A stretch of 64,000 bases of DNA from Cliona cf. orientalis. Taxonomy: Eukaryota; Porifera; Demospongiae; Clionaida; Clionaidae. The stretch is taken from NCBI GenBank assembly GCA_963930775.1, contig OZ005689.1, forward strand, positions 18,747,775 to 18,811,774. The letters are read 5' to 3'. The notes below the pieces were generated by a model. The model worked only from the letters and a program-made list of their open reading frames with translations, made no database searches and was not told where the DNA came from. This document shows positions 3,761 through 39,926 of this stretch, piece by piece; the first letter of the stretch is position 1, and the number at the start of each line of letters is the position of its first letter. A program made the translations under genes and the position numbers.

Positions 3761-3771
3761 AGACCTCTACA

Positions 3772-6045: not shown

Positions 6046-6381
6046 AGACATACACAAATTAGGGACGGTGACATGAAACAATACAAAGTGATAATTATTA
6101 TGACTCAAGTGAATAGTAGTTCAGTGCGAGTCGGGACCAACTATTTCAGGGCTAGGGCTGTCACATCTGGTTGTCGTTATACCACTCCCCTCCCTTGAAA
6201 CGGTACGTCCTCGTGCCGATATTGCATGAGTCACGTACTCCCCGTATCGATCCGGAGGTCTCCTGTTGCGCGTTGAACGTCTGAGTTGGGGCTGTTGTGG
6301 AGGAGTCGGAGGGTTTGCATCAGACGCCGATGGCGAATCTTCAGCTGAAGATGCTGGCTGCATATTTGATTCCTCGCTGGA

Positions 6382-7992
6382 CAGTCGTTAAGCCAGCGGT
6401 CCAAAACACGTACAAGCGTTGCAGATCCAGGAAGTGCATCCGGTGGCACATTCCAGTGCATGCAATTTTTGCCGTTTTTATCTATTTTTTCTTACCTGTT
6501 CTATCTAGGCCATCTTTCACTTCTAGGACTCCAAAGACCAGAAGACAGAGTAACTCTTCTACTCTCTGCTCGTTCAATTCCCATAACTCTGAGACATTCG
6601 TGAGCTCCACGGCAAGCGCTTCTGTCCATGCTATTTGCAAGCGCTCACAAAAGTGCCTCGCGCAAAAAGTGGGGCATCTAGGTTCCCTTGGATGGATTCC
6701 CATGATTCAAGTACCATTCAATAGCTCTTGTGTTGCTCTACAATATGAGACTGGAACGAAGTTTTTCCATCGAGCCATTCCAGAGTTACACGCTATTAAA
6801 AATAGTACAAAAATCATTATTTCACCATGTACGTTTACATACAAATCAATGATATTACATAGTACAAGCTAGCTATATAGCTGCTAACTATCAAAGGCCA
6901 TCTTGAACTTTTGCTGAAGGTTGTTGGAGCTTCACAATCAGTCTCCTATTCCACCATCACAGCTATGGTTGATAGAAAGTACTCTTCCAACACTCGATAA
7001 ACCTGATCACAGGAACATCACCTATTGTGTATGTGCATGGGGTCAGGGTCAGAGGGGAGAGAGAGAGAGAGGGAGGGAGGGAGAGAGAGAGAGGGAGAGA
7101 GAGGGAGGAAAGGAAAGAGAAAGAGAGGGGGAGGGGAGGGGGGTGAAGTACCAGAGCACTAGTGAAGTGTTAGCTACCCTCAATTGTAAGTATACGCTCG
7201 GGATTTCCAGCTTTGATGTAAGCTGCTTTACAACACAGACTCTTCCTCTGATGTATCCAGACTACACTGGTAAGGCTCACCCATCCATGGACTTTTTCTA
7301 TGCTGATACACTCGCCTCACACACACTTCTAGCCTCGTACCCAGGCCTGGGTACAAAGCTAACACGCTTCATATTTATATTTACCGTGGCCAACATTCAT
7401 AAATACTTACTAGACTACAGAGAAGGAATCCTTCAATCTGGATGACGATGCCTCCTCCTTAGAAACTTGGAAGTACTCAAGAAATACTCTATATCTTGTC
7501 ATTTACGACTTGTTCTTGGGCAGAAACCTTCGAGAAGATATGGAAAATACCACGCGGTTGTACTGACATTTTGTGATTTTCAATGCTGTGTAACTCTGGA
7601 ACGGCTCAGTGGAAAAACTTCGTTCCAGTCTCATATTGTAGAGCAACACAAGAGCTATGGAATGGTGCTTGAATCATGGGAATCCATCCAAGGGAACCTA
7701 AATACCCCACTTTTTGCGCGAGGCGCTTTTTGTGAGCGCTAACGAGTAGCATGCACAGAAGCGCTTGCCGTGGAGCTCATGAATGTCTCTGGGTTATAGG
7801 ACTTGAACAAGCAGAAAGTAGAAGAGTTGCTCTGTCTTCTGGTCTTTGTTTCGAGTCCTAGAAGTGAAAGATGGCCTAGATAGAACAAGTAAGATAAATA
7901 GATAAAAAAACGGCAAAAATTGCATGCATTGGAATGTGCCACCGGATGCACTTCCTGGATCTGCAACAATTGGACTGCTTGCTTAACGGCTG
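6382..7992. mobile_element. Foldback element, copy 1 (1.6 kb, about 430-bp inverted arms)
   Basis: Left arm 6382 to about 6800 and right arm about 7570 to 7992 are inverted repeats, starting CAGTCGTTAAGCCAGCGG and ending in its diverged complement. A 4-bp duplication TGGA (6378-6381 and 7993-7996) flanks it. The uninterrupted Gypsy sequence at about 9260-9285 shows the empty site with a single TGGA. This proves that the whole 1.6 kb arrived as one unit rather than as two independent repeats. The interior (about 6800-7570) holds a (GA)n tract and no recognisable gene, so this copy is non-autonomous. A second copy lies at 37430-41018. The superfamily is unclear; 4-bp duplications occur in Sola- and Academ-type elements, among others. 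Confidence 0.85.
7055..7145. repeat. (GA)n purine tract
   Basis: About 90 bases of GA/GGGA repeats on the plus strand, in the interior of foldback copy 1. Confidence 0.9.
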
Positions 7993-8359
7993 TGGACAGC
8001 AATGAAGAATAGTGCGATAGTGGCGGAGTCGACTGCTCTTTCTCACTACGGCCCTTGTAGTGTTTTAGCCGATCTGAGAGAACCACCAGCCGTTTTCTTT
8101 TGTTGTTTGCACTCCGGATTCTGTAGACGACATCACTCAAAACTTTGATAATTTCGTACGGCCCTTGCCACTGGTGAATGAAGCCAGACTTGGTCCCCAA
8201 CAGTGTAAGGGCTGACCTGTGTTCGTCTATCATACAGCAGCTTTTGTCTTTTCTGCTCCACATCAGTGTTATTTCGGACCAATTTGTAGGCATCTGCGAG
8301 TCGGTTTCGTAGCTTTAGTGCAAATTCGCTTGGAGACTCAAAAGTTTCGTCGGGTGGGA

Positions 8360-9450
8360 AATCCACTTGAGCGAGTCGCCATGGATATCCGGGGCCCACT
8401 CCCAGAAACGCCTCGTGGCAACAAGTATATACTTGTGCTTGGGGACTACTTCACCAAGTGGACGGAAGCCTATGCAATGCAAAATATGGAGGCTGTTAAT
8501 GTGGCTAGGATTTTTGTGAATGAATTTGTCTCTCGTTTCGGTGTACCCGACTCCTTGCACACCGATCAGGGGAAAAATTTCGATTCCATGTTGCTCAAGG
8601 AAGTATGCAGACTGTTGGGTGTAGAAAAGACTCGTACGACCCCCTACCATCCTCAATCAGATGGCCTTGTTGAGCGGTTTAACCGCACTCTGCTTAACAT
8701 GCTCAGCATTATTGCTACAGAGAAGGAAGACGGGTGGGACCTTCAGCTACCAACTGCTATGCTTGCTTATCGTACTAGCATCCACGAAACAACAAAAGCC
8801 ACCCCCTTCAGCTTAATGTTTGGACGTGAAGCGAAGCTACCGGTTGATGTTGTGTACGGTTCCCCACCCGACGAAACTTTTGAGTCTCCAAGCGAATTTG
8901 CACTAAAGCTACGAGACCGACTCGCAGATGCCTACAAATTGGTCCGAAATAACACTGATGTGGAGCAGAAAAGACAAAAGCTGCTGTATGATAGACGAAC
9001 ACAGGTCAGCCCTTACACTGTTGGGGACCAAGTCTGGCTTCATTCACCAGCAGTTCGAAGGGGCAAGTCACGCAAGCTACACCGACCATGGCAAGGGCCG
9101 TACGAAATTATCGAAGTTTTGAGTGATGTCGTCTACAGAACCTGGAGTGCAAACAACAAAAGAAAACGGCTGGTGGTTCACTCAGATCGGCTAAAACACT
9201 ACAAGGGCCGTAGTGAGAAAGAGCAGTCGACTCCGCCACTATCGCACTATTCTTCATTGCTGTCCAGCGAGGAATCAAATATGCAGCCAGCATCTTCAGC
9301 TGAAGATTCGCCATCGGCGTCTGATGCAAACCCTCCGACTCCTCCACAACAGCCCCAACTCAGACGTTCAACGCGCAACAGGAGACCTCCGGATCGATAC
9401 GGGGAGTATGTGACTCATGCAATATCGGCACGAGGACGTACCGTTTCAAG
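8360..9450 (+). CDS. Gypsy integrase region with C-terminal GPY/F-like module
   Basis: The frame shows an integrase catalytic core: GDYFTKWTEAYA around the first Asp, LHTDQGKNFDS around the second, and PYHPQSDGLVERFNRTL carrying the Glu. Near residues 295-320 of the frame lie VGDQVWLHSP and RPWQGPYEIIEVLSD, the GPY/F-type module that helps choose target sites. The tail is Ser/Pro-rich with basic patches. It lies immediately before the polypurine tract and right LTR, as in the family. Confidence 0.9.
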
Positions 9451-9462
9451 GGAGGGGAGTGG
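9446..9462 (+). other. Polypurine tract of the Gypsy element
   Basis: CAAGGGAGGGGAGTGG directly abuts the right LTR and would prime plus-strand DNA synthesis. Confidence 0.85.
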
Positions 9463-9754
9463 TGTAACGACAACCAGATGTGATAGCCCTAGCCCTGAAA
9501 TAGTTGGTCCCGACTCGCACTGAACTACTATTGACTTGAGTCATAACAATTATCACTTTGTATTGTTTCATGTCACCGTCCCTAATTTGTGTATGTCTGA
9601 TTCACCTTCTGTGATCCACCCTAACTTTCCTATATAAGGGTACAGTTATCTAAGCCCTGCCGCAGTATTCTATGGAATCATTTTCCAGTATTCAATATAA
9701 TATTGTTGCCACTTGAAGAACTCTAGGCGCGAGCTATCGCTGCTGCACGTTACA
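9463..9754 (+). repeat. 3' LTR of the Gypsy element
   Basis: A 292-bp LTR, nearly identical to the left one. It is 12 bases longer through two short insertions in its last third. CTTA, the target duplication, follows at 9755-9758. Confidence 0.95.
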
Positions 9755-16300: not shown

Positions 16301-17590
16301 ATACAATGCATAAACCTTAATGTATCCTCTAAAATTCAGCCAAAAATAGACATTATGCTCGAGATTTGCCTAATTTACATGGGATACATACTATACACTC
16401 ACCCACAGAACTCTGGACTTCTTATGAGAAAATGAATTAGACCAACAATTCCTTGCTGTCTTTAGCAAGTGTGGGACATCACTAAAAAAACAGATGTATC
16501 TATCTTCTTCAATGGGCTTCTTCGTTCTGTACACAAGGTTCTTTCCGTCCCCATGCATTTTGAAGAATTTCCTATTGGGTGATGCACTGTCACTGGTGAG
16601 AGCAATTACAGTTAGTCCACAAGCCTGCAATCGTTCCACTATTTCCCACACCATTGGATACAACGTATCAGCACTCGCGTTATTGGTAGCAAAAGTGAAC
16701 GTATAGAAAATTTACCCTTGTAAATAATCCTTGAACCATAAACAATAGTACATGTGACGCAACATCTCGGGATTGAGGACTGTCGATATCCTGCTCAAGG
16801 TGGCTCAAATCATTATTGATATCCCCAATATCTGTAAACCCTACCAACTCGCAGGTGTGCTTGTTAAAAACTAATCCCTCTTTGATCTTCATTTCATCCC
16901 AACAGAGCATGATATACTTGTGATGTTCTTCTGTTACATTGATTTCTTTCAAAAGCTGCTATCAACTGCACTGTTAAATCCTATTCCAGCTCTGATCCAA
17001 TGGGTATAATCACGTAGGGTTCTTTCTGAAGGTAAAGTGAACAATCCCGAATTACGAATGGCATGGTGTGCTCCTGAAGAAATGAACTTAAGATGGAGGC
17101 ACCACCTTATTAGTGCAGGGTGCCACCTTATCGTCCGTGCATCCGATTTCCCAAGTGCTTTCACCTGCTCATCCCAAGAGTCACCTGAATGAACCTTCAG
17201 GATACTTGTCATGGACAGTAGCTGTCATGTCCTCCATAACGCTTTTGAAGTCAGAAGGCAATTCACCAAGATGTACGCCACTTTTCTCGTTTACTACAGC
17301 AATTTTTGATCGCATTCTTTCAACCTCCTTTGATTTTGCATCCAGTTGAGCCCTCAACCTGGTGTAACGTGCGTTTTTTCTCAGGAGTGTTGAAGGTTGT
17401 ATTGATTGGAGACAACACTATGGTGCCAAAATTCACCTTGGCGCCACAGATATAGCCTCGCCCCAGGCCACTCCCATTCAAGTTATCGATAATGCATACT
17501 TGAATAATTTATATCAATAATTTGTGTATATTAATACTATACATGCTGTATCACTTACTTAAATAACAATACTTTCATGAAAAAAAATTG

Positions 17591-19705
17591 TTACTTCAGT
17601 GATAGTTTAGAGAATGGAAAAGAATCGATTGTGTGCTCTGTCATCGCAAGAGCCATACACGCATTGAGACTTTCCTGTGTAAGCACAGATCTGAACTTGT
17701 TTTTTACGTAATTCATCACACTAAATCCTCTTTCGCAAATGACGGACGTTGATGAAATGATCAGAAGAAGTAACGCAAGTGATGAGATTTCCTTGTAATC
17801 TTCTCCTTTATGCAGCTCGCTCCAAAACTTCACTAAGTCATTCTGAGCTAACTGGTATTGGAAATCAAGAGTAGAGTCATTCTGGTAGGTTTTCATCTGA
17901 CATGTAAGAACATCATGATTGAACTGAAAAGGACTGCGATCAGTTTCGAATTTAGAGCAAAGGGCTTGCAGATCTGGCTCTTGAAGCTTTCTTAAAGCAG
18001 GATTGACGAATGCTGTATTCTCCACGATGAAGTTCATGTCGGGAAATCGATTCTCCAAAGCCTTACCAACAGTGACAATGTAGTTGAACATTATGTTTTA
18101 ACTCCCTTTCAGACATAAGAGCATGATCTGAGCAATCTGCTAGATGCTTTTGGAAATCTGACCCAGGACACAGCAAAAGTGCTTCTTCTATAGGACGAAG
18201 GTTGTCATCAGAAATGCTTTTGCTGGAGTCAACTGCAGCTGGAGAGATGAATGTCTTCAGAAGTGCTTGGATTTTGCAATACACAGTATGCAATGAGATA
18301 TTGGAACTTTGAAGCCACTTATTTAGTGAAGCTAAAATGCTTAAGTGTGGATGTAGAAAATAGAGGTAAAGATGAAATTTAGGCATCGATAGCCTTTCAT
18401 GCAAGTCTCGGCACCTGGTCCGAACTGCAGCCCTGTTAGCTGTATCCAGGGCTTGCTCTTCAAAATATCGAATAAGGAGAGGTAAGAGCTGCACTACTCG
18501 TGCCACACAATCAGCTAAAGACAACCACCGCACCTTGTGATACTGGACGATTGATACATGAGGACTATCAGGTTCAACCATTTCTTTAAGCTTTTTGAAT
18601 TCATCACGTCTGACAGGGCTGCCTTTAAAGAAAAACAAAGTGTCAGAAATCGTTTTCTCAACATCATTATCAGGCAGCTCTCTTTGCCCTTCTTTAGCAG
18701 CCATAACAAGTCTATGTGGTGGACAGTGAGTAGAAAATAGCTTTGGGTTGACTTCTGTGACGCCTCTCAACTTCCCCAAGACTCCATTTTTTGGGGAGAT
18801 CATGACAGATGCTCCATCACTTGTAAATCCCGCAAGCTTATCTAAGGGCAACCTTAAATCTGGGTTTTCTGGATGTAAAACTTCCATTAAGCTGCCAAAT
18901 ATGTTTTGAGCAGTTGGATGGCCTTCTACCCGTTTCATTTCAAGAAATTCTTCACATAACTTGCTTTTCTCTACATCAACTTACCTCACATAGACTCCTA
19001 GCTGCTCCATAGTAGCAGAATCGGTTGATTCATCTGCCATGAGTGACCAAAATGGTGACTTACGAATTGCATGGATTGTGTTAGGCTTGAGAATGGATTG
19101 GTGCATTTACCAAGAGCGTCTTGTTACAGTGTCTCGACTTCCAGCCATCAACTTGAACACTGGTGAAGTAGGATCAGCAGCTCTAGCGAACTCAATGAAG
19201 CTCTCACAACAGCTGTAAGGCAACTTATGCTTCCCCAATACGAATGCTAACTTGTATGGTGCAAGTTTCACCAGCTTGTCTGGTTCTAACGCAGCTGTCA
19301 AGGTAGATCTCTGCTTTGAGTACATGTGCTCAAACTGTCTGACCAGCCGTTCTCTTTTATCCACAGAAAAAGTGAGGCTAGAAGGGTGTTTACGTTGTAA
19401 ATGACGCTTGGCAGTACTGCTTTTTGCTTTTATTTTCTCCTGGCAATGAATACATATCATTTCCGTTTCATCAGATTGCTTACTAGCCCCAGCTTCTGTT
19501 GCAGGTGAGCGACTCACTGGCCACATCATATACTTTATTTTCCATTCATCCTTGAAAGTTCTTTTGTCCACTTTCTTTTTATGCTTCACTGGACAATGCA
19601 GTGATGGCAATTTAATGCTACTGCTGTCAGAAGAACCAGTGTTGGATCCGGCAGACTCGTAGTCTTCAATAAGAGGGTCCCTGATATTACTGGCTTCACT
19701 GACAC
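17591..19705 (-). pseudogene. hAT transposase, main part
   Basis: From 19705 down: a Ser/acidic linker, a zinc finger C-x2-C-x13-H-x4-H (CIHCQEKIKAKS...RHLQRKHP), then SPFWSLMADESTD, GHPTAQNIFGSL, KLAGFTSDGASVM with a catalytic Asp, HCPPHRLVMAAKEG, and KVRWLSLADCV. At the end comes the hAT dimerisation domain (ISSLALLLLIISSTSVICERGFSVMNYVKNKFRS). Two in-frame TAA stops (at 19107-19109 and 18981-18983) and one frame shift near 18080 break it, so it is inactive. Its first 25 codons lie at 27791-27866, beyond the inserted element. The type resembles the ZBED/zinc-finger-862-like branch of hAT transposases. Confidence 0.9.
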
Positions 19706-19714
19706 TAGTAGATC
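19706..19714 (+). repeat. Target duplication TAGTAGATC, left copy
   Basis: Nine bases, identical to 27782-27790, immediately outside the terminal inverted repeats of the 8-kb element. The hAT reading frame confirms that only one copy existed before insertion. Confidence 0.95.
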
Positions 19715-19751
19715 CAGAGGAGGTAGGACAGGGTCAAAAGGTCACCAATAT
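19715..19751 (+). repeat. Left terminal inverted repeat of the 8-kb transposon
   Basis: Thirty-seven bases identical to the complement of 27745-27781. Begins CAGAGGAGG and includes GGGTCAAAAGGTCACC. Confidence 0.95.
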
Positions 19752-19906
19752 ACCCAGTGTAATGCGTATGATGATTGCATGCTTTCTAAATCACGTGATG
19801 AATTCGCTCGGTCCGGGTCCGGTGCATGCAGAATAGCGTGGGATTGGGCCATGGGACGCTTGTTGCTCTAATTAACGAGCAGTGCACATGGCATGTGGAG
19901 ATATAG

Positions 19907-21209
19907 ATGGCACAAAAAATGGAAGACGAAGATGTATTCGCGTATGACTCAGAGAACGACTCGGAACACTCAAGCCTGTCGAAACGGGCTGAAACTCCAG
20001 AGCGTGAGGCAGAGGGAGTCAAGATCGACATCATTCAAGTGGGGGAAGTAGTACAGTACACTATACCCAGCTTCCCAGTTTTGACTGTCTATCTGAGGCA
20101 TTGTGTGACAAGCGTGTGGGACAATACGGAAGAGAAAGTGAAAATGTTCGATACCTTTCTGCGTGAAGGTCCCGACATTATTACGAATGTCCCATCAAGT
20201 GTGGAAGTCGTAGAGAGTTGCAATATCTGTGTAAGTCACCAAGCATACATAATTTGCACTGTTTATCACCTTGGGTATTCCAGCCAATAAAGATACACCC
20301 CTGTTAAGCCTTATTTTGAAGTGGTAAGACTTAATGAAGTCTTAGCAGGACCTGAAATACAAATTTTTGGGTACACCTTATTCATGGATGTGCCTATTAA
20401 ACTGCAAAAATTAAAATCCTGAACTAAGCTTGATTTTATATGCAAGTACACACTTCCATGAAATGGCAAAGATCGACCATCCATGAACACCACAAAAATT
20501 TTCCACTACATTATGGTAGTAAGTAGGGGTGTATCTTTCTTATTGGAGTTTGGGGAAAAATCAGTTTCAGTGAGCAATAATTTAATCACTAGTATTCACT
20601 ATCTGTTTTTTGGTACTACAGGCATCCGAGTTTTCCAATTGTGTTGACACTGAAAATCTTAGATTGCCTGCAACTGGTGTGTGTGTTATATGGAAGTGGA
20701 ATTGGTTAACAGCAGCAAGTGGCATCCAGTCAGGTGAAGAAGTTGAATCTGGTGATGAGGAAACCAAGACTGATAATTCAGATTCAGATGCCGAGGAAGA
20801 CCTGGTTAATGAACAACCTGACACAAATACGTTAGTATTTAAATGCATGGGATGCCATAAGGAGACACGTTATCAGAAAGCATTGGAGAAAGTGCGTGAC
20901 CTGATGGCTGAAGGGAAAAGCGTACCTGTAGCAATTGTTCATGAAAAAACTAACATTTATGATGCCAGAGCCCTTGCATTTGTGTGCCAGTTGGATAACA
21001 AACCCTACACCATAGGGTATGTAGTCAGCGAACTACTTGACGAAATGCACATGGCAATCGAGGCAGGAAATATCATCTCAGTGAATTTCTCATGGGTCAA
21101 GTACATCACCGACTGGACAAGATGTGGCCCAAAATTTTTTGCGGGAATTGCTATTGAAAGGAAAGGACCATGGTCACCTCAGGCGATTAGATCTGCCAGC
21201 ACTAGGTAG
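19907..21209 (+). CDS. HIRAN-like accessory protein of the 8-kb transposon
   Basis: Two exons, 19907-20230 and 20622-21209, are joined by a GT-AG intron (donor GTAAGT at 20231, acceptor CTACAG ending 20621) in phase 0, giving about 303 residues. The N-terminal half is acidic (MEDEDVFAYDSENDSEHSS) and a second acidic run follows near residue 140-170 (GEEVESGDEETKTDNSDSD). The C-terminal half has FKCMGCHKETRYQKALEKV, VPVAIVHEKTNIYDARALAF, YTIGYVVSELLDEMHMAI and CGPKFFAGIAIERKG. This order matches a HIRAN-type domain, which in Rad5/HLTF binds single-stranded 3' DNA ends. A role in handling transposon ends or repair intermediates is inference. The start is the first ATG after the terminal repeat region. 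I see no breaks. Confidence 0.75.
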
Positions 21210-21354
21210 ATGCTGAGTGGCTACAATGGAATCTTCATTGCTGCAATCAACTTTATAACAATACTGCATTGGTTGTAGAATCAACTACCTAACAATTATT
21301 AAATGATTAATGTTCAATGATCAGTTTACACATTACCTGTCACTGAAACTGTTA

Positions 21355-24300
21355 CTAATGTTTTGCATATGAATGCTCCGAGAGGTGGTGTGAATCCACT
21401 GTTGGTGGGGGCGGTAATTCCAGAGGGAGGTTATGATACGTCATTCGCACTGAACGAGCACCAGGCACAGGAAGAGTTGCCCTACCGAAGACAAGACTAG
21501 ACCCTAGTTCTCTTCGACGTATCCTTTGCTTCTTCACTTTGTGTGGGCGTTCATCAAAGTGTGGCCGTTCACCCTCATAAAAGCGATCGTGAGCTGATGT
21601 AAAATAGTAGAATCCAATGTCTGGGTCCATACGCTTAGCAAATTCGATGCATGTCTTCCTCCATGTGCGTTTTGCCTCCCTAACAGTGAAATGCTTTCCA
21701 GTAAGATCTCGCATAATTGAGAACATGCACTCGACATCATCTGTCGTACTTGAACGGGGATTCTCTTGCTTTCTCTTTAGTTGGGCATTCTCTCTCCTTT
21801 TCCATTCAATACTCTCAATGTTAGTAGTTAAAGCGATCACAGTTTCCCGTGTGAATCCAAGAACACCAATATTGCTATGTATGAATAAACAAACAAATCT
21901 GATACACACGAAGCAAACATATTCAGTGTGTGTATGTTTATTGGTAGTAGCCTAGCAGCAAAGTAGGTCAGTGATAAACAGAGGTCAACTACCAACGTGT
22001 AACTGCTATGTTTGTGTGAGGGAAGAGACTAGGAGGTACAGGTATGTCAGTACATGCACATACATGTACATGCATGTATTAAATGACTATGATAATCTCA
22101 TGCACAAAATTGTATTTACGTGTTCACTTCCATCAAGCTGAAGTCATAGTGACTTTGATGCCATGGCATTAGCTCATCGAGCATGAATTGAAGAAACTCG
22201 TAATTAAACCGGCATCTCTGGAGTGAACTCAAGCCTCGCTCATCACAAGCACGTCTCCAATTCCTAATGATACGCACATATTTTGCTTCATAGTTGTACC
22301 CCATTTTCTCCATGAAGTCTTGTACACCCTTGGAAAATAGTATCTCTGCATCTCGGACTGACTGTTTCCGTTGACCAGTAAGAGCTGCAAAGGTTAACCC
22401 AGAATCTTCGTCATGAAGTGCTTGGGTAAATCGGTCCAGCTTCAGCTTTGACGGACCACCAAGTCTGGTACTCTTGGCAATTCTCTGCAAGGTTGTGAAA
22501 ATTATACCAGGAAGCATGCAAACATGTATAGTATTTTATACCTTCAGTACATGGGCAAAGTCTTCTCTCTCATGATACACACTGTTGGTTACTGTATGTA
22601 CTTCAGGTACATACATGTACGTCCGGAAGGGGACTCCTTTCTCATCCCATGTGCAAATTTGGTGACGGTACTCCAACTGTGCCAAAATTGACCGAAGCAT
22701 ATCTACTAGATCCTCCTTTTTTCCTAAAAATATACATGTAATTAATACTTGCATGTACATGTACATGTATACATACCACCACAGAGGAGGTATGAAAGGA
22801 TCTATGCGTAGACAAAAATGCTGAACCATCATTTAACCCCACAGACTTTGCACAGTAAACCTCAGCAGCATTTTACACAGGTGAATCCCACGGATCCCCA
22901 TACCAAACAGGCATGGTTGTGACTAATGATCAAAGCTAAAGTGGTTAAGCTAGCAAACACTAGAGGATCAGGAGTTTTAACACTGCAACTATAGGGTCAT
23001 GACCTAAATATAGTTATGTGGCATATTAATTTTGTACCTCCTCTGATACAGCCCAAAGTCAAAGTACTCTCACACATGTACCAAGTGGGCATTAAATAGG
23101 GCAACATTACATACAGTGTAAAAATGCACTTGTTCGAAATGACACAACAATACTACATCCTGATTCACCCATGTATCCAATAGCACTTGGATAGAACTAG
23201 ACGCTATGCAATGACAACTCTCATGGTGAGTCAAAAATAGCCCACTTCCCACCAATGCTTCTAGAGCACTCAAGTCATAGGCAGGCCATAATAATATTAT
23301 CATCATTATACCATTCTCTGCCATGCTATAGTTGTCTGATATTGTACTAACCTTCAGTCCATGAACGTACAGCATATCCAGCAGGGACCATCTGCAATCG
23401 TAGCCGTTTAATGACATCTACCTCATCAGCACCAGCTTCTTTCCACTGCAGTAGTTTTCCAAGCAGCTCGGTAGAAACAGCAGGATTGTACTTGACCGCA
23501 ACAACATGGCCATCAGCTGATTCTACAATAAACATAATACTACAACATCATGTGTGTGAGTTATTTCAGAATATATTTCTATGCAGCGAAATATTAATAT
23601 GTACATCTACAACATTACAATGTAGTTTGATCTTACGTTTGGGGGTCAACATATCCATCATAGTTTTCTTCCCCACACTACTATACTTTTTCCTGGCATC
23701 AGCTCTGATTTGAAGCACAGATAAAGGCCGAGTATAACCATGTGATTTCATACTGTTATATTCTCCATTAGAAACAAATCCTACACAAACATATACATAC
23801 ACATACAATAAATCAAGATGCCCATCAACTCACCATTTACATCCATGTCTCTTTCAACCATAGCAACCAACAGACAATTAAGTAGCCCACGCATTTGCTT
23901 AACAGGCATACTTGAGTATGATACACACTGAACTGGTAGAGCGTATGGCTTTTGTGATCTGGACTCAGTGCTGATCATTACCACCAGGATGTGTGTTGCA
24001 GCGGTACGCTTGTGCTTATACAATCCTAAATTATGCAAAACCAAATTAAATAATAAAGTATGTAATGTACATGTAAATGACCATGAGCATTACTTTAATA
24101 TTATTATGCCATATCCACACTTTATATTTTCATAGTTTGCTATACCATACACATGTACATGTACATACTACATGTACCTGTGCACAACCAAACAAATACC
24201 TTTGATAAAGATGAGAAGCCTTTCACTTATGTTTGTTAAACGTTTAGCAATGTTGCGTGATACAAGGTCAGTATTGACATCTTCCAGCAATTCTTGAACA

Positions 24301-27300
24301 GCAACAATTTCTACCAGTAGATTACGCCCACTCTCAGAGAAGCGTGACAGATCATCGATGGACCATCCAAGGTTGAACAAAGTCTTATCCTGTGCTGTAC
24401 CAGATTGGACCTTTGACGAATACTCTGCATTAGTACTCTGCACTGCAAGTAATGAAGATTGAAATTGACATATATAATTAGTGTACTATTCAAAGAGAAA
24501 ACAAGCTGAATGGCCTTGGGGGCACATTAAATTTCCCCAATTAGCTACTATACAATTTGGCCAAATGCCTTTCAACCACCTAAATAATAGTACAATGCAC
24601 CCATCAACCATGCCCACAGCAGGATATGTGTAGTGTTTCATTTAGAGGGGGGGGGTGCCCTGGGATTCCCCCCCCCCCCCAGTGACCAGTTTCCCCCCCT
24701 AAAATATTGAGAAATTTTAGTATAATATATACTAAATAAACAAATACCAAGATTTAAATTAAGGTTAAAGAGTGATTCGTCGGTTTGACTGTTTGAAATG
24801 TCTAATATCGAGTCTGTGATTTGGGAAAGTTAATCTACATGTGTAAATGTACTAATTTCACACTTACTTAGTGGGTATGTACATGTATTTGTCAACCACA
24901 ATCTATCAGCACTAATTTTTGATCAAAATAGGCCTAAGATGCAATTCTTTATGGGGGGGGGGGGGTACCGACATATAGTCCCCCCCCCTAACAAAAAATC
25001 CTGTATGAAACCCTGATGTGGCACTTTCTGCTCATGCGTACAACTGGCCTGGTAGAGATCGTCAACAAAATACATGCATAGCCTCATCCCCAGGCGGGAG
25101 GGGGAAAGAAGGCCTGGTATTTACTGTATGTGCATGTGTCAACCTTACCTTTAAAATGTCTGTAAAAGTGTCTGTACGCCACGTGCTGACAAGTGAAACA
25201 GTCCCTATGCGTAAAGAATACGGGATGACCTCCTGACCTTTGCACTAGTACCTATGCTGTTCAGATGCCTTCGTCGATCAACATGGCACAATCTCACTTG
25301 AAACTCATACTATCCAAGAGTGCCATTTTTAGGTATGTTAAGCACGAGGAATTAAGGTCAAAGGGCAAGTATAGCACTATGAAATATCCGTATGTAATCG
25401 GATTATTCAAAATCTGAATAATATTGGCGCATGCGCATGCAGACCTTCTTTCCCCCCTGGGGACGAGGCAGGGATGCACAGGGTATGTGCTCTATAGAGC
25501 TCTAGTTACAATGTTACTATTGCCTCCCCCCTCAAGAAAACTTTCCTCTGTATACATGTACATTTATAAATACAAATATTTTGTACAACTTACACTGATC
25601 TATGAAGGTGAGATCCTCTTTCAACTCATCCCGTTCCTGTTTCAATGTCTGTATCAAGTAGTACCTTTCAGCTGGCACAAATATGTTCCTTGTTACAGAT
25701 TTGACTCTTTTTAGCCTATCTTGATAGGTACGATACATTTGTTGAAGTTCTCCTGTTCCAAGATCAACATCTCCATTCCATTCCAATTGTACCGATTCTT
25801 CCAGACCACCCACCACATCACACCCATCAGCTTTGATCCACCATCTAGTTTTAGGGTGCAACCGACATGCTTCATCCAATGTGGCAGTCTATTATTATAA
25901 GCAATCACACTTGATAAGCAACAGACGTGAATGTAATAACCTGTATTTCCGAGCCAGTAGTAAATTTGGAGTCCGCAATGTCTCGACGAAGGGTGCGCTC
26001 TCCAAGTGCAGGAACATTCACACGGGCCTAAACAAAAATTAATAATAAACAGCATTGTCATTATTAATACAGACAAACCATACCTTTAGTGGATCTCTGT
26101 TACTGGTGATGCATGCAGAGCCTTGAGATGTAGGATCCTGACTCCACAGAGGTCCACAAAATATCTTGCAAAATTTGGTTCCAAACAGTATGTACATTGT
26201 TTGTAACCAGTTTCGGTAATCACTAGAGCATGTGACCTACACATTTGTGTATTATTCTGTTGTCAGACTTAAACTGTAATAAGTGCTTACATTTCTACCA
26301 GGCGAAGCGTTAAAAAAACCCACCATGAACTGAAGCATGCCCATGGGCATACGTGAAGTGGGAAATAAGGAATCCGTCCCATCCGGCCTCATGATCCCTA
26401 ATCCTCTTGCCAATTCATACAGCACATTCATTCTCTTTGTTTCACTCAAATGCTTCATTCCTTTGAGAGATAACGTCAGGAAATCATTTGGCAACTTCAT
26501 CTGATAGTAAGTAGAAGCATGGCTACAAAACATTTCATTCATCAAGGATAACTGCTCCTCAGTTGATAGTTTGTTGAATCGGCCAACAAGTGTTTCCATG
26601 GTATCGACTACGGCTATCAACTTGGGTGAATAACACACTTCATGAGACTTGGACACACTTTTCTACAAAGTTAAACATAACTGATATTAAACTATTAATG
26701 CTGTCAGAGTATCATGCTCCAGACAACACTACAATTACAAATTGGGGGGGGGGGGGGGGGGGATGGGTGGGGGTTGAGGGGTGGTAACAACAAGTTATGT
26801 TGACATCAACAATGTGCCAACAATATTGCCTTGAACGGTGGTATGAAAATCAAGCGCAATGACTAATTATCATGTGAAAAGCTAGACTTTGTAGCTTGAA
26901 TAGAGACTCTTGTGTATGCACTGTGTATATTATCACTCCCTCTCTCAAAAAAATTTACATGTACATGTTGGACATCACTGGCAGAAAATGATCCAAGCTG
27001 ACGTTCTGCTTCTTTGGGGGTTGAGAATCTCCTCTGTAGCTTGACACTGACCCGACTTCGGCACCCCCCACCTGGAACATGTGTGCATGATACCATAGCT
27101 GTTCTAATTAATGCACATAAAACATGAGTCAAAAAAATAGCACACATGCCCAGATAAAGCACACTTTAGAGCATGTCAAATGGTAGGCATATACCACAAT
27201 TCAAAATATCTTCAAAGGTAGCTGGACTCAGGTTCGATATTATTTTTAATTTTTCTGACATAAATATATTAATACATTATAGAGGATTATTTAATACTAA

Positions 27301-27622
27301 TGTATAGTCTGAACTCACTCGTTCGCTGAGCCTCTCTGCCACAACGGTCATGCACAAATGTCGCAGCGCGTTCCCAGTACTCACTCCTCATCGAAACTGG
27401 CCATTCGTGCGGACATGTTAGCAAAATGAACTCAACAAGTGCCTTCTCTTCCGACAAAGTCCAAGCACTCGATGGCGAGCGAGGCGGGGTAGTGGGGAAA
27501 ATGAGCTTCTTCTTCGCCGACGAAGTTACAGACGAAGACGGTCGTTTAGCCTCTTGCTTCGGGGTTCTTCCAGTTGGAGTTCCTCGTTCTCGCTTCCTAC
27601 CTTCTTCCATCATAGCGTGCAT
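21355..27622 (-). CDS. SANT-domain, transposase-like protein of the 8-kb transposon (13 exons)
   Basis: Exons on the minus strand: 27622-27319, 27071-about 26959, 26662-26291, 26236-26084, 26027-25941, 25888-25594, 24442-24200, 24025-23834, 23780-23637, 23522-23352, 22723-22542, 22484-22120, 21874-21355. All introns are GT-AG and phases agree throughout, giving about 1,046 codons with no stop. Residues 52-105 look like a SANT/Myb-like DNA-binding region (SSAWTLSEEKALVEFILLTC). Near residue 360 RWWIKADGCDV and GDVDLG, near 590 FVSNGEYNSMKSHGYTRPLS, and near 920 STTDDVECMFSIMRDLTGK are conserved-looking acidic blocks that could supply catalytic Asp/Glu residues. The tail is basic with LELPPPP. 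I infer that it is the element's transposase; the family is not recognised. The exon 2 end may be 26965 instead. Confidence 0.8.
24629..25018. repeat. MITE-like insert in intron 6 of the transposase gene
   Basis: Loosely complementary ends (TGTAGTGTTTCAT at about 24636 and ATGAAACCCTGATG at about 25003) enclose about 390 bases with paired G-runs and C-runs (AGAGGGGGGGGGTGCC, CCCCCCCCCCAGTGACC, and again near 24955-24988). It lies inside the 1.15-kb intron between 24443 and 25593. The ends are imperfect, so this is tentative. Confidence 0.4.
26744..26762 (+). repeat. G homopolymer run
   Basis: Nineteen consecutive G followed by further G-runs to about 26785. It lies in intron 2 of the transposase gene and could form a quadruplex or be an assembly-sensitive site. 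Confidence 0.9.
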
Positions 27623-27744
27623 GTGCTAGAATCAGGTGGGGCAAGGATTCAGGGATTCGAGATCTGGAATTGCGCGTGCGCCGGCGATCGTAATTGATCA
27701 CGTGAGGTAGAAAGAATGCATTATACTGCAATGGCGGACGCTGC

Positions 27745-27781
27745 ATATTGGTGACCTTTTGACCCTGTCCTACCTCCTCTG
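27745..27781 (-). repeat. Right terminal inverted repeat of the 8-kb transposon
   Basis: Exact complement of 19715-19751. It is followed by the second TAGTAGATC copy at 27782-27790. Confidence 0.95.
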
Positions 27782-27790
27782 TAGTAGATC

Positions 27791-30570: not shown

Positions 30571-30789
30571 AGCCGTCATGGCTAACTGGAGGTCAACAAT
30601 TCAGATATTCAGATTAAATAAGTGACCTTAAGATTACTTGCACAAATCAATAGTCCATCTTGCTTAGTTGGTCCATGGCCTTTAGTGCTGCTGCTCTCTT
30701 TGGTCTGATTTGAGTCTCTTCTTGGAGGTCCTGGGTGTCTTGGGAATGTTGTGTACATTCTATCGAGTGTGATATGGTTGGCTCAGTGT

Positions 30790-32110
30790 CAGGAATTTGA
30801 TTGCCAGATCTCTTCTTTCCGTCTATCTCCAATGGGTACAACAAGTTGATTGGCCTCTGGAAGGTGCTGGTTTGTCCATCTCCTGAAGGCACTGCTAGTA
30901 CAGCTGCTCGCACTCTTCCATCACGTCCAGTTATTAGTTGCTTTACTCTAGCCAGTCTCCAGAATGCTCGAGGCTTGTCTTCGTGCAGGATCACAACATC
31001 ACCTGTGTCAATAGTGTTCGTGTCATTATTGCAGCTACCAGCATATTGCTGTCGATGTGATTCTCTCAATTCCAGAAGATATTCGAATTGCCACCGCTTC
31101 CAGAAGTGGTTGAGAACTACATTAAGGTGCTTCATTCGCTTGGTTAGGGTTAGGTGGTCCTGAGTTAGATTGAAGTCCTCGTCACCTGGATCATCTCCAC
31201 AGCTGATACCATCAGGTAGGCTTAGAAGTCTTCTCCCGATAAGGAAATGAGCTGGTGTGAGTGGTTCTTGCAAATCTTCTGGAGAAACATACGTCAGAGG
31301 ACGCGAATTGATTACCATCTCGATTTCGACCAGGGAGGTAAGTAGTTCATCATACGTGAGCTTGGCTTGGCCAATGATTTTTTTCAAGCACCGTTTGGTG
31401 GAGCGAACCATTCGTTGGGGCTCTCTCAACATTGAATTTCCATACAACTCATACAACTCCCAGCTCACTAAGGTTTTCCTGGACTTCTCGTGACTCTGTA
31501 ACCGCCTGAATGGCCTTTGCTGCAGCCTTAAATGTCTGGCCATTGTCTGATACGAATCTTCTAGGTAGCCCACGTCTGGCTGCAAATCTCTTCAGACTTC
31601 TGAGGAAGGATGAAGTAGTCAAATCTGGCACCAGATCGAGATGCACAGCTCGCACAGTGCAGCATGTATATAGGCAAATCCATGCCTTGGTGCCTTTTGC
31701 GCTTCCTGTCGACTTCACATACAATGGCCCAGCAAAATCCACTCCTGTAGAGGTGAATGGAGAGTCCATTCTAACCCGGAAGTTTGGTAGCGGGGGTGGT
31801 ACTGGTACGGAGTAGGGTCTTCCCTCAAATCTCCTGCATACACGGCACTTGTGTAGAATCTTCTTCACCAGTGATCTCCCCTTGATTATCCAGTACTTTG
31901 TTCGAACTTCTGTTAGGGTCTCCCTTATGCCGTTGTGAAGAACTCTTTCATGTGCCTTAAGCACCAACAACTCTGTCAGCGGGTTGTCTCTTGGAAGGAG
32001 AGTAGGATGTCTTGTTGCATATGGCACTTCAGCGTTTGCTAATCTTCCCCCACACCTCCAGATTCCTTCAGCATCTATAAAAAGATTGAGCTGCTTCTTC
32101 CAACTATTGA
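30790..32110 (-). CDS. BEL integrase region and DUF5641-like tail
   Basis: An H-x-C-C-type zinc region (HNGIRETLTEVRTKYWI, CRVCRRFEG) is followed by the catalytic core: TGVDFAGPLYV, AVHLDLVPDLTTSSFL, RRFVSDNGQTF and further on the Glu region. The tail has LTPAHFLIGR, LNHFWKRWQFEYLLELRE and GDVVILHEDKPR, a DUF5641-type module. The order is normal for the family. Confidence 0.85.
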
Positions 32111-32469
32111 ACTGTTTGCAGTTCACAAGGAGGTTTTGAGCTTCTTTCACCCAAAGCATTTCAGCTTTGCTCAAGAGGGGCACTGTGAGTGTTGTAGTTT
32201 CTCTGAGCTTCTTCCTGAGCTTCTCCACTGCAAGTAGTACATAAGCGGTTACTCCAAACAACCTCCGTGCTGAACTGAAGTGTTCGCTTTGAAACAGCTG
32301 ACCAATCCTTGCTGTGGGTTCAATAACCACCAAGGTGTGCAGAATTCTATCTTTGGCCCTTAATTCCTGAATGCACTCCTCAGGCACAGACTCCTCTTCT
32401 TGATGAATGATCAGCTCTCCATTTTTCAACCAATCTGGTCCGCTTCTCCATAGATTATTGGTGGTCAGC

Positions 32470-33000
32470 TGGGTGAGGGACATTCCTCTTGAGGGCAAGT
32501 CGGCAGGATTGTCTTTTCCTGCACAGTGTGTCCAGGTGGCGTCTGGAAGCAGCATCCTGATCTCTGTTGTACGATTCTGTACAAATTGTTTCCACTCCTT
32601 AGCTGCTCCTCGAATCCAGTATAGTGCCACCTTTGAGTCAGTATAGGAGATTCTTTCAGATAAAGGAAGTCTTGGCTCCAGTCCCTTCTTCACACTGAGT
32701 AACAATCTTGCCAATAGCAGAGCGGATAAGAGTTCGAGTCTTGGGATGGTCTGTGGTTTCAGGGGGATTGACTCTGGTCTTTGAAGCGAGAAAGTTCACA
32801 TAGAATCTGTCCAAAATCTTCACTCGCAAGTAGACAACGGCTGCATAAGCCTTCTTTGAAGCATCACAGAACCCAATCAGTGAATAGGACTGCACTTGGT
32901 GATGGATATCACACAGTAGGAACCTTGGGATGCGGATCTGCTGAGCAGTTTGTAGGTCAGTCATCATCGATTGCCATTTCATCAATGGTGCTCCTGTGAG
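32470..33000 (-). CDS. BEL RNase H region
   Basis: GFCDASKKAYAAVVYLRV marks the first RNase H Asp, and the region runs to the ALYWIRG and CAGKDNPADLPSRGMS segments that precede the integrase in BEL/Pao elements. Confidence 0.8.
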
Positions 33001-33199
33001 TGGCTCGTCCCATCTCAGCCGGAAGCTGCACAGCTCTTGAAACAGGGACTTCAACCGAATCACAACTGGAGATAAGAACCCTAGTGGGTCATAGATTCTC
33101 CCAACAAGACTCACAATATGCCTCTTGGTGGGTGTGAGACTACTTGCCTGATGACCGACTTCACTGACGTCAAGAATGAAATGATCTGTTTCAGTGCAC

Positions 33200-34340
33200 C
33201 ATTTTACACCCAATGTTTTGTGTTCTCCAGCTGCCATACTGTAGGCACCCCCTAGCATTGTCTGGGAGTATGTTTCATCTGAATGGAGTGTGGAGGTTGA
33301 CTCAAAATTCTCCTCTTGATAGATGCGTTCTTGCAATCTGGATGAATTTGTATTGAACTTACGGAGATTAAAACCTCCTGCATGTAGTATGGCCTTAGAC
33401 TCGGTACATAGTGAAGGCATCTTCTTCTGTATCAGCTCCACTTATAACATCGTCAACGTAAATAGATTCAGAGATTCTCTTTAATAGCTCAGAATGCGTC
33501 GACATATACTTCTTCAAGTGGTGACTGATCGTAGCATTCAAGAGGAAGGGACTTGATGATACTCTGAAAACAACACGTGTAAATTTCATGATCTGAATTT
33601 CAGGTTGAGGTTTATTCACGTCATCGAACCAAAGGAGCCGTAGAACATCTTGATCTTGTTCATCATCCCCAATTTGTAAGAATGCACGTTCAATATCAGC
33701 TGTAAGTGCAATTCTCGAGGCTCGAAATCTCAGTAGGATGTCCATAATCCTCTGGTCAAACTTAGGGCCAGCATAGAGGCAGTCATTTAGAGAGGGTCCT
33801 GTTGTCTTTGACGATGCATCGTAGACAATTCGTGTCTTTGTAGTTGCTTATCCTGCTGCACAACAGCGTGGTGGGGTAAATAGTGCACTCTATGGCAACT
33901 ACTTCAACAACTCCTTGCTTTATTTGCTCTTGAATGATTGCATCATACTCCTTCAAAAGTGCAGGCTGTTGCCAGAGACGACGCTGTAGGCCTCGTAGGT
34001 GTTTGAGTGCAAGCTCATAGTTGTCTGGCAAGGGTGGGTGTATATCTTTCCATGGTAGCGACACCAGGTAACGGCCATTCTTAAACTTGACCTTCTCTTC
34101 AAAATAGGTCAACACACTCTGACCAGGTTGCTTGATACCCAAAGATTCGAGCTCCCAGAAGGAGTGTAATGTCTCATTGAGTGTATCCGTTTCACTTGCA
34201 GTTGTGGCCACGTGCAAGGTGTGCGTTATCAAGAGGTTTGTAGTGCTCTTGGGCTTCTTCATTCTTGGCACAGGTCCGGAAAGTACCCATCCAAGTCGGG
34301 TGTCTATGGCGACAGGGCCATCTTCATATCGGCTCACATG
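33200..34340 (-). CDS. BEL reverse transcriptase region
   Basis: DTRLGWVLSGPVP and the following linker lead into a reverse transcriptase core with ADIERAFLQIGDDEQD around the first catalytic Asp and the YVDDVISGAD box near 33440-33475. FLLNATISHHL is the family's hallmark between them. Confidence 0.85.
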
Positions 34341-34599
34341 ACCAGTAACAAGCTCCCAGTAGTAATCTGCCCCAATGAGAGCATCAATCTGAAGGGGATC
34401 CTGTTCATTAGAGTGGTCAGCCAGGTTAAGCGGTTTGAGATGTTCAAACTTCTCCAAACACAGGGATATTGGTTGGGCTGTCAAAGATTCACATATGGAT
34501 GGCACTGTGATTAGCTGAAGCTCTCTGGTTTCACCATCCTTCAGTTTCAGCCCAACATGTACGATTCCATACCCCCAAGGATCTTGGGCAGTAGTTCCA

Positions 34600-34780
34600 A
34601 AGGTTGCAAACTGAAAGCTGCTGCACCTCCTTCAGTTTCAGGTTCAGGGCCTTCCTGGCGGTTTCTGCGATATATGATCGCTGGCTTCCAGCATCCAGAA
34701 CAGCTCGAATATTCAGAGTGGAGTTTGGCTTTTCAGGATTGTAGAGCACGACTTGGGCTGTATGTAACAACACATTCTTG
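34600..34780 (-). CDS. BEL aspartic protease region
   Basis: The motif LNIRAVLDAGSQRSYI has the D-x-G-S active-site core of the DUF1758-type protease found in BEL/Pao polyproteins, just downstream of the zinc knuckles. Confidence 0.8.
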
Positions 34781-34879
34781 CTGGCACCAATGTAGAGGGT
34801 CGAGGTAGGGGTCTGGAAGGGAGGAGCTTCAGGATTGAGAGATGCCGATCCAGCTACAGGGGTTGGCCCATCATTCGAC

Positions 34880-36110
34880 ACCTGTCCACATATACTGACA
34901 TGATGTCTTGCACTGCACTTGCCGCACCTTAGGCGAGATCGGCACTCCCTACTGATGTGTCCCTTTCGCAAACATACGAAGCAGCGTCCAAACTTCCGCA
35001 GTATCTGCTTCCTATCTTCAATCCCATTCACTGATGTACAAGCTTCAGCAGTGTGCTGTTGTTTACAGTAACAACAGCTAGTAGCAGAGTTCCCAGACAG
35101 CAGTGTAGTGGCAGTGTGTGGCTGCTCACGTGGTTTCCTTGTAGGTTGACCAGCGTTTGGTTGAGTAGCCTGAGCCCTCTCTCTGGCATCAATTTCCTGC
35201 TCTACTTCTTTCAATAACTGGTCCAATCCCACATCACCGGACTTCCGACTCACGATCAGCCTTAGCTCCTGTGGAAGCTTGTTCAGTAGAACCGAGGTTA
35301 ATAGGGTACCATAGGTCTTGGAGTCGACACCCAAACTCTTCAAGCTGCGCACGTGTATTTCTACACTGTCATAGAGTCGACGTAGATTCCTTAACTGGTA
35401 GACTGCATTCACTGACTCTAGATTCAGCAACAGGTCCATTTGCCTACTGATTATCTGTTGCGTGTTCCTGAAACGCTTCTGTAGTATAGACACCGCTTCC
35501 TTGTAGTTGTGTGCTGTCAATGCGAGTCCGGTAATTGATTCTCTGGCAGAGCGCTCCAGGAAGGACCTCAAGTATTAAATTTGTCGATGTCTGACAAGGT
35601 GGGATTCTCATGGATGGCAGAGTTGAAGGAGTCCCAAAAGGTAGTCCATTGAGTGAGGTCTCCACTGAAGGGTTTTATGGAAAGCTTGGGAAGTCTCACA
35701 CTAGGCTCTGGAACTCTGATTGGTGGTACCTCATGATGAGTAGGACTGGCAGTAGGAGCAGGTGTGGGTATTGCTGCGAGAGAAATCAGCTTCAGGGCCT
35801 TGTCTATCTTTACCAACGCGGCATATATGTCACTCTTGTAATCATCTGCCTGCTCAATCTCTGTAGCAAGTGCATCTTCCTCAATTAGATCGATAATCTC
35901 ACCATCCAACAGCTTGAGTGTGCCTAGTTTCTCTTCAAGCGTGAGCTTTAGCTGCAGCAATTTGGATTCATCACTGGTTTCAGCCGTTAGTGCCTCATTC
36001 ACCTTCATCAAGGTCCGTGTAGCAGAGGCTCTGTGTCCTGCTCGAATCCGTTTCTTCTTTGCAAGACTCTCAGCCATCTGTATCAAATCAGGCAGAGCTC
36101 TTTTAGCAGA
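34880..36110 (-). CDS. BEL gag region
   Basis: The N-terminal part is helical (IELVIHSAKRALPDL). A DUF1759-like region follows, with LPKLSIKPFSGDLTQWTTFW and LTAHNYKEAVSILQKRF. Near 34900-35050 lie Cys/His knuckles (CCYCKQQHTAEAC and CFVCLRKGHISREC). This is the standard gag of BEL/Pao elements and would package element RNA. Confidence 0.85.
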
Positions 36111-36126
36111 GTGGATAACTAGCTCT

Positions 36127-36144
36127 ATCCGGCTCAAAGGACCA
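36127..36144 (-). other. Primer-binding site of the BEL element
   Basis: TGGTCCTTTGAGCCGGAT directly follows the 5' LTR on the minus strand. It begins TGG as expected for a tRNA CCA end; I cannot name the tRNA with confidence. Confidence 0.65.
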
Positions 36145-36417
36145 TGTAAGGGGCTGCAGCTTATTACTGAGTCCACTTTGTTCAATGTTAGCTAGTTCCC
36201 GACACTGCCCTGACTTATTCACGTTGTCACTTCAACTTTCATGATCGAACTGAATGTGTTCAATATGCACACTTTATATAGGAATGAGGGGTGAGACACA
36301 GAGTTAGACACAGAATTAGCAAACTGAATAGTATGGACATAACATTGTGTTGAATCAAATAGAGAAAAACAAACAAGCATTCAGCAATCTTGGGAATGAA
36401 TAATGAAATCCACAACA
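36145..36417 (-). repeat. 5' LTR of the BEL element
   Basis: 273 bp. On the minus strand it starts TGTTGTGGATTTC and ends CCCCTTACA. A TATA-like CTATATAAAG word lies near 36270-36280. Confidence 0.95.
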
Positions 36418-38353: not shown

Positions 38354-39926
38354 TCAATGAAAGTCTTCAGTAATAGAGGCTATAATCTTGTCGATGTCTA
38401 TTTCCATGTGGTCAGTGACTGATGTAGTAGGTGCTGCCTGAGCTGGGGCTGCGTTTATGTTGATAGTACACCCATGAAGGTTTTGAAAGTTAAATGATGA
38501 TGGAGCAAGCTGAGTTGGTTGTACTTCAGAAAGAGTGTGAGAAAGTATCCTCTTTTCTGAAGCCTGATGGTAGAGCGTTGATTCAGAATGGGGAGCAGAA
38601 AGAACAGCTGAAATTGCCTGATGTTGCTGAGCATTAGTTCGTTCATACATTCGTAGAGCTTCCAGCGACCGATGTCCCGTTCTCTCCTGTATCAGTTTCT
38701 CAGGAACTCCGCTGTCATACATTTGAGTCGCACTAGCTGCTCTTAGGCTATGGTTCGTCTTATTGCCACCAATACCTGCTTGTTTACACATGTTGTTGAG
38801 CTTGCTTTGGAGGGTATCCTTCCCAACAGGCACTGCTGCATACCATGGTGCAGAAGCATCTGTGGGTGCTTCAGACAATAGTCGAAGATAGAAGAGGTCA
38901 CATTCATGCGCTTTTGGAGGTAGCTTACTCAGGTAGGTGTCCAAGATGAAGACTGGGCACCTCTCGCCAACTTCTGGGCAAGCATATACTGGAACGACCT
39001 TTCCTTTGATGCGCAGCTTTCGAAAAGATCCGCTGTTGGTTTTAGATACATTCTCGTAGTAGACGTAATGATCAGGATCACAATTTCTCTTTAATTGAGA
39101 CAGTTTAAGCTTTCTGTGCTCAACACCACCACGCAGACTGAACATTTTCCCAACAATAAAAAAAAGCTGCATTTTGCAGTGATCTGGGGGTAGTTACACC
39201 CATCACACCACTACTCCACAGCTTCTCTTCATCTTCCTTCGTTAAAATTTCAGTGTGTTTGGTTTGCACACCTACACCATCAGAATGAAGCTGATGAAAG
39301 AGAGCATCCAAAGTGCCTTGCAAAGGTCGGAAACGAGAATCTTTCTTATCAAGAAAGTTTGGGCAGCCTGGAACGTTTTCTCTCATGTATCTGAGGAGCC
39401 CACAGAGCAGTTGGTGAACTGTAGCAGGTGGATAAGATTCTCCAGTAGTCTTCCTAGCTTCCACAGCGAACCTAGCAAGATGAGTGTTCAGAAGGAGAGG
39501 ATCACAGCTTGTTAGCAAGTGTTCTGGAACGGTATCTTCTGGATAGCGCTGGTTCCTAGCCTGACACCATTGGTCAAACACATTCAAAGCCCATTTCGTC
39601 GACCTACTAGTGTTAGCGGGCGTGTATCCTTTGGATAACTCGGTTAGCTCCTTGTCGCTCTTGAACTGGAAGCGGTCGCTTGGAAGGAGGAGGGGCTGGG
39701 GCGAGCTGGTGCTAGGGCGGGGACTAGATGACGTTGTGAGGCCTAGGCGGAGTTTTTGTTCTTGGGGTATTGAACAGTCGGTCCACTCGCACATGCCGGG
39801 ACAGTATGGGTCGTTGGCCACGCAGACAGTGCTAGTTTCGGAGTCCATGTTCACAGAAGACTTCTCGTTTCTATTTGTTTCTAAGCCTCTACTGTAAGTT
39901 ACTATGGTGACGTAGCGGAGAGCCAA
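38354..39926 (-). pseudogene. Crypton-like tyrosine recombinase (DUF3504 type)
   Basis: Two overlapping minus-strand frames (39926-39120 and 39172-38354) read as one protein of about 525 residues. The N-terminal part has LTELSKGYTPANTSRSTKWA and FDQWCQARN, the SAM-like core-binding region. The catalytic part has CLRGGVEHRKLKLSQ-like sequence near the join, SKLNNMCKQAGIG, NHSLRAASATQMYDSG with the H-x-x-R pair, RTGHRSLEALRMYER with the second His and the nucleophilic Tyr. This matches Crypton transposases and the DUF3504 domain of KCTD1/ZMYM-type relatives. One frame shift lies at an 8-T run near 39155. Cryptons integrate by recombination and lack inverted repeats, so its position between foldback arms is unusual. 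The Ser/Asp-rich tail is not informative. Confidence 0.85.

Follow-up and report, generated by a model that had tools for sequence, protein, structure and literature searches.

A two-gene DNA transposon with P-element-like features in the sponge Cliona cf. orientalis

The locus described here raises the question of what kind of mobile element it holds. Within a stretch of 64,000 nucleotides from the sponge Cliona cf. orientalis (GenBank assembly GCA_963930775.1, contig OZ005689.1, positions 18,747,775 to 18,811,774 of the forward strand), hereafter called the window, positions 19715-27781 are occupied by a DNA transposon of 8,067 bp that carries two genes. The element is real and apparently intact, and we consider it likely that it is an autonomous cut-and-paste transposon of a lineage related to P elements. 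The most fitting description is a new lineage beside the P superfamily or a very divergent branch of it, its novelty being judged against Pfam and the literature covered. We document here its ends, its target site duplication, its gene pair, the spread of its copies, the purifying selection on its main gene and the sequence blocks that it shares with P elements.

Boundaries, genes and copies of the element

The element is bounded by 37-bp terminal inverted repeats (TIRs), the left one starting CAGAGGAGGT (19715..19751, plus strand) and the right one perfect (27745..27781, minus strand). An inverted-match search returned this pair, identical at 37/37 positions, as the sole exact 37-mer inverted match between the 18.0-21.5 kb and 26.0-29.5 kb parts of the window, and direct comparison of the flanks showed a perfect 9-bp target site duplication, TAGTAGATC, on both sides (19706..19714 and 27782..27790, without strand). 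The initial annotation had reported these same ends, duplication and length, and all of them were found again. It had also stated that removal of the element restores the reading frame of a hAT gene. A single minus-strand frame is indeed open across the junction once the element and one copy of the duplication are taken out, but its hAT identity did not hold: the junction piece of the flanking gene gives a weak BED-finger match below cut-off (E 0.0072), and the neighbouring frame at 18066-18938 matched PYRIN only (E 0.066) and not hAT. A search of the genome for a copy of the flanking gene without the insertion matched only the two flanks themselves.

Gene 1, on the minus strand, was spliced into 13 exons separated by 12 GT-AG introns and codes for 1,041 amino acids with no internal stop. 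The introns and the unbroken frame agree with the initial annotation, which had given a length of about 1,046 codons; the difference probably comes from other splice choices by the earlier reader. Match boundaries in a full-length paralogue, the C19 copy, lie no more than 5 residues from 10 of the 12 exon junctions. Gene 2, on the plus strand, is unbroken and codes for 303 amino acids in two exons (19907..20230, and 20622..21209 with the stop codon); the initial annotation had also described it as a two-exon gene without breaks. The two genes are convergent and their stop codons lie 145 bp apart.

Searching the genome (216.8 Mb) with the first 29 bp of the element end and allowing up to 3 mismatches gave 82 forward and 78 reverse matches, against 0 for a reversed control; in most of the matches listed, which are part of these 160, the end is a variant that differs by two bases from that of the window element. 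Copies were bounded within 30 of the end-match places and 8 further loci. Six full-length copies, that of the window included, were delimited, with a 9-bp duplication that is perfect in 4/6 and matches at 8/9 and 7/9 positions in the others, along with 14 short copies of 215-424 bp, whose 9-bp flanks are identical in nine cases, differ by one mismatch in four and do not match in one. Both the ends and the 9-bp duplication of the initial annotation therefore recur in further copies. The C19 copy measures 8,944 bp and has a perfect duplication, as do two C1 copies of 6,709 bp (with CACAGGAGG at one end) and 5,938 bp, while the C6 copy (5,965 bp) and the C12 copy (5,972 bp) have the duplications matching at 7/9 and 8/9. 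The main aligned blocks of the C6 and C1:33.09M copies, the latter being 744 bp longer, are 99.3-99.8% and 99.5-100% identical in two comparisons, those of the C12 and C1:5.38M copies are 97.4-98.1% identical, and six short copies compared pairwise are 92-99% identical. In each of the two full-length pairs the copies occupy different sites with different duplications, which indicates recent movement of this group of elements. A 215-bp element at C1:20801340-20801554 (L003 1501-1715) begins with 35 bases identical to the end of the window element and lacks a matching 9-bp duplication; it is possibly a short derivative.

The two genes travel together. Scoring 44 of 181 candidates gave at least 89 gene 1 exon matches, and 35 gene 2 matches were found, 27 of which were entered after leaving out 8 that were further pieces beside listed ones. 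A gene 2 relative lies no more than 9 kb from gene 1 in 21 of 24 gene 1 entries, on the opposite strand and convergent in 21/21; some of these entries are parts of one copy, since on two occasions two entries share one gene 2. Eight of the 27 gene 2 places have no gene 1 within reach. The HIRAN profile is matched by four of eight gene 2 relatives (best E 3.5e-7, one above the curated cut-off), and their matches align with the second half of gene 2 exon 2. The window gene 2 protein itself matched neither HIRAN nor any Pfam domain over cut-off, and a PDB profile search with gene 2 found no HIRAN chain.

Gene 1 is under purifying selection. All 10 pairs among five gene 1 families show a proportion of nonsynonymous differences (pN) of 0.25-0.40, against a saturated proportion of synonymous differences (pS) of about 0.8. 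The selection script counted two aligned stop codons in the window copy and one in C19. Those of the window come from tblastn matches that extend into introns, the spliced frame being free of stops, and we assume that the one in C19 also comes from a match running into an intron.

Probable kinship of gene 1 with P elements

The gene 1 protein is predicted to begin with an N-terminal domain, followed by an RNase H-type core that inserts interrupt and by a C-terminal tail. The N-terminal domain, with a conserved Trp and Glu, is coded by exon 1 (27319..27613) and is Myb/SANT-like at most, as the matches of N-terminal pieces from two members (E 0.088 and 0.21) can be taken as a lead only. Exons 2 (26965..27071, with a donor ambiguous by two codons), 3 (26291..26662), 4 (26084..26236) and 5 (25941..26027) precede exon 6 (25594..25888), which holds the putative first catalytic aspartate (D1, residue 359). 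Exon 7 (24200..24442) is an insert that separates the D1 part from the beta3-like part, KPYALPVQ, of exon 8 (23834..24025); the second catalytic position (D2) is expected in exon 9 (23637..23780). After exon 10 (23352..23522), exon 11 (22542..22723) codes for a D(2)H motif, DFAH (residues 741-744), and after exon 12 (22120..22484), exon 13 with the stop codon (21355..21874) holds the putative catalytic Glu, residue 917, in TTDDVECMF.

A first protein search returned nine gene 1 relatives, from the sponges Halichondria panicea and Dysidea avara, from Mytilus, Actinostola and Branchiostoma, and from four JGI records, and a second search returned six more, Mizuhopecten among them. TNP-like_RNaseH_N (PF21787) was matched in 12 of these 15 homologues (best E 5.5e-9), while each of the other 14 Pfam families among those listed was matched by one homologue. 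Six family loci were among the matches of a whole-genome PF21787 scan (E 0.02-0.43), all under the cut-off and among the weakest of those listed. When seven canonical P proteins from the same genome were combined into a profile, it scored 48.9 against the family over the beta3-D2 part, the best of 60 column shuffles scoring 32.7 and the reversed profile 18.5. For the E block, the D(2)H block and the block after D1, the best local placement is the collinear register with the P profile, in which TTDDVECFF falls on the P motif QDPLExFF, EREDxxHxLK on SDxPHxxK, and GDVDL, a stretch of seven columns that follows D1, on GFxxxG. The proteins of the P superfamily are described as carrying the set of DDE and D(2)H residues (PMC4168063). 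The initial annotation could not assign the main protein to a named superfamily, which stands insofar as the window protein has no Pfam match; its homologues, in turn, point consistently and weakly to the P RNase H domain.

Several observations weigh against a P-related, autonomous element. The window protein alone matched no Pfam family, and the PF21787 cut-off was passed by only one of the ten homologues whose scores were printed or that were scanned singly. Shuffles scored as well as the real alignment in 11/60 cases for the E block, 2/60 for D(2)H and 13/60 for post-D1, so that none of the three is significant singly, and the D1 residue itself falls outside its aligned stretch. An earlier, smaller profile comparison was weak (29% probability for beta3-D2 and 0.3% for the E block), a PDB profile search with gene 1 gave no P match, and none of the 66 genome matches to PF21789, the P RNase H C-terminal family, lies at a family locus. 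As a benchmark, even the match between a canonical P fragment of the same genome and the P transposase of Drosophila is no better than E 0.008. The window protein also has Asn at the expected D2. Lastly, the initial annotation had suggested a count of near-identical copies as a sign of activity. The group does share ends and 9-bp duplications and includes near-identical copies, but none of them is near-identical to the window copy: a 586-bp end query returned terminal bases only, plus the element's own other end, and the relative closest to it in the tree shares 58% identity with it over 607 columns, so that the window copy looks like a singleton.

The same evidence could describe an ordinary P-superfamily member that has simply diverged and may already be listed under 'P' in Repbase, a reading that we hold possible and yet rather doubtful. 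The PF21787 lead, the D(2)H motif and the P-like E motif would all fit it, and so would a TIR that starts with CA, as in the P elements of this genome and of zebrafish (PMC10983969). Against it, no THAP match was found in Pfam for the window protein, the 15 members or five N-terminal pieces, with the full N-terminus available for the window protein and four members (P0004, P0008, P0009 and P0010). The duplication, exact over 9 bp in 4/6 full-length and 9/14 short copies, differs from the 7-8 bp given for the P superfamily (PMC4168063, PMC7776569) and from the 7 bp of the canonical P family of the same genome, which has CATAG ends and was delimited with symmetric ends in two copies, one of which would also permit 8 or 9 bp with unsymmetric boundaries. 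The extra inserts, the HIRAN-like partner gene and the lack of PF21789 matches at the family loci argue in the same direction.

The two canonical P copies with 7-bp duplications (C5:9849134-9854046 and C6:10350614-10355522, about 4.9 kb each) are 99.3% identical, and P elements have therefore been recently active in this genome too. Near the transposon, at 16442-16955 of the window (minus strand), lies a canonical P fragment, the part at 16722-16955 matching TNP-like_RNaseH_N (E 5.2e-12).

The second catalytic position

In the window protein the expected D2 is Asn586 (AAT, 23769-23767), with Glu588 two residues on, D2 being assigned here from sequence alone. Thirteen of the 14 family loci read have Asn at this position, always encoded by AAT, and the remaining locus has Asp (GAT), whereas the P elements read in the same genome have Asp. 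The 13 Asn loci represent nine distinct families and near copies. Among homologues with a readable site (P0008 and P0013 had none and were left out), Asp is found in 10/13 and Asn in 3/13. Only Asp and Asn occur across the 27 readable sites, and Glu is present at position 588 in every one of them except P0005, which has Gln.

A tree built without the D2 columns requires five changes between Asp and Asn, four of them forced by well-supported branches. A single origin of Asn was rejected by the approximately unbiased (AU) test (p 3.2e-46), a result to be taken with caution, the group having been named when an earlier tree had already been seen. Nor is Asn universal in this host, as one family has GAT. 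Restoration of Asp by adenosine-to-inosine RNA editing (AAT to IAT) was unsupported when stretches of at most 500 nt surrounding the codon were folded at 14 loci: the contiguous stem at the codon did not exceed 8 bp, and z-scores ranged from -2.9 to 3.2 with 15 shuffles each.

It could be argued that the transposase of the Asn-type copies is catalytically dead and that rarer copies of the Asp type mobilise them in trans, in which case the window element would be non-autonomous. The predominance of Asn among the loci read and of Asp among the homologues favours this view, and matches at C11:3.75M and C1:14.65M, as candidates only, may be further copies of the Asp family. We nevertheless regard it as unlikely, given that Asn is kept across families with saturated synonymous sites and constrained proteins, that the recent near-identical copies are of the Asn type, that the readable sites hold nothing other than Asp and Asn, and that the state changed at least four times. 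Since the Asn families include recent copies and show purifying selection, a shifted metal ligand is favoured over a dead enzyme, and the most likely replacement appears to be Glu588. Switching between Asp and Asn at a site usually regarded as essential in DDE transposases can be tested directly and, if true, would alter the criteria by which transposases are declared 'dead' from sequence.

For an autonomous P-related transposon, the RNase H fold, the catalysis and the end binding of gene 1 are predictions from its sequence, according to which the protein would bind the CAGAGGAGG ends, cut them and join their 3' ends to the target with a stagger of 9 bp between its strands, gap repair then producing the 9-bp duplication. 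Gene 2 is conserved and convergent with gene 1, and its product is proposed as a helper whose HIRAN-like domain would probably bind DNA ends. The HIRAN domain of HLTF binds to 3' ends of single-stranded DNA, and 3' extensions remain after P elements are cleaved; for this reason the gene 2 protein may handle the transposon ends.

Neighbouring sequences and comparison with known systems

A short element with CAGAGGAGGTA...TACCTCCTCTG ends, of the CAGAGGAGG type, is nested in intron 10 of gene 1 (22782..23045, without strand), and its 9-bp flanks match at 6/9 positions only. Elsewhere in the window, open frames at 2801-9523 (plus strand) and 30647-36185 (minus strand) resemble, by eye and from the list of open reading frames, the gag and pol of two long terminal repeat (LTR)-type retroelements, and two overlapping frames at 38354-39926 (minus strand) resemble by eye a frame-broken tyrosine recombinase.

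HIRAN domain proteins such as HLTF share with gene 2 the profile that four of its eight relatives match; gene 2 differs from them in that it codes for 303 amino acids, with no Pfam domain over cut-off in the window protein, and lies inside a transposon. hAT elements have TIRs of the CAGAG type, a likeness to the ends described here, but their duplication is of 8 bp (when the flanks were compared at 7, 8, 9 and 10 bp, 9 bp fitted), and the hAT C-terminal dimerisation domain was not matched in the 15 gene 1 homologues. hAT is placed within the D/CxxH group (PMC9587614), and Zisupton is reported with 8-bp duplications (PMC12730594). A Mutator-like (MuDR/MULE) element, which the 9-bp duplication and the position of MuDR within the group sharing C/DxxH (PMC9587614) might suggest, is very improbable, as no MULE or MuDR Pfam family was matched in the 15 homologues, none of the 58 genome matches to PF10551 (MULE) lies at a family locus, and the E motif is by eye of the P type.

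If the kinship with P elements is true, a deep two-gene lineage is added beside them, the size of the duplication implies a cut spacing different from that of P, and a HIRAN-type domain becomes tied to transposition. In the parts of the literature covered on HIRAN and transposons, 9-bp relatives of P, new superfamilies and Asn at D2, no such element was found, which does not prove its absence. More tentatively, the lineage might be a separate superfamily sister to P, with 9-bp duplications, a HIRAN partner (in this genome) and protein relatives in sponges, cnidarians, molluscs and lancelets, in which a change from Asp to Asn at D2 would be tolerated because the metal is bound by the neighbouring, near-invariant Glu or by some other group, the triad having shifted several times.

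The closest comparison remains that with the P superfamily (P, 1360, Galileo and THAP9), with which the element has in common the TNP-like RNase H N-terminal signal, a duplication from staggered cuts, a TIR starting with CA and the collinear post-D1, beta3-D2, D(2)H and DxxExFF blocks. No match to the P-type GTP-binding domain was present among the Pfam families listed for the gene 1 homologues. Besides its longer duplication, the element differs from the superfamily in its second, HIRAN-like gene and in the Asn that most of its loci have at the expected D2. Relative to Galileo, with positions taken from PMC4168063, the span from D1 to D2 is 227 residues here versus 88, that from D2 to D(2)H is 155 versus 34, and that from D(2)H to the catalytic Glu is 173 versus 190; from the first two it follows that the core of the gene 1 protein carries two extra inserts, of roughly 140 and 120 residues.

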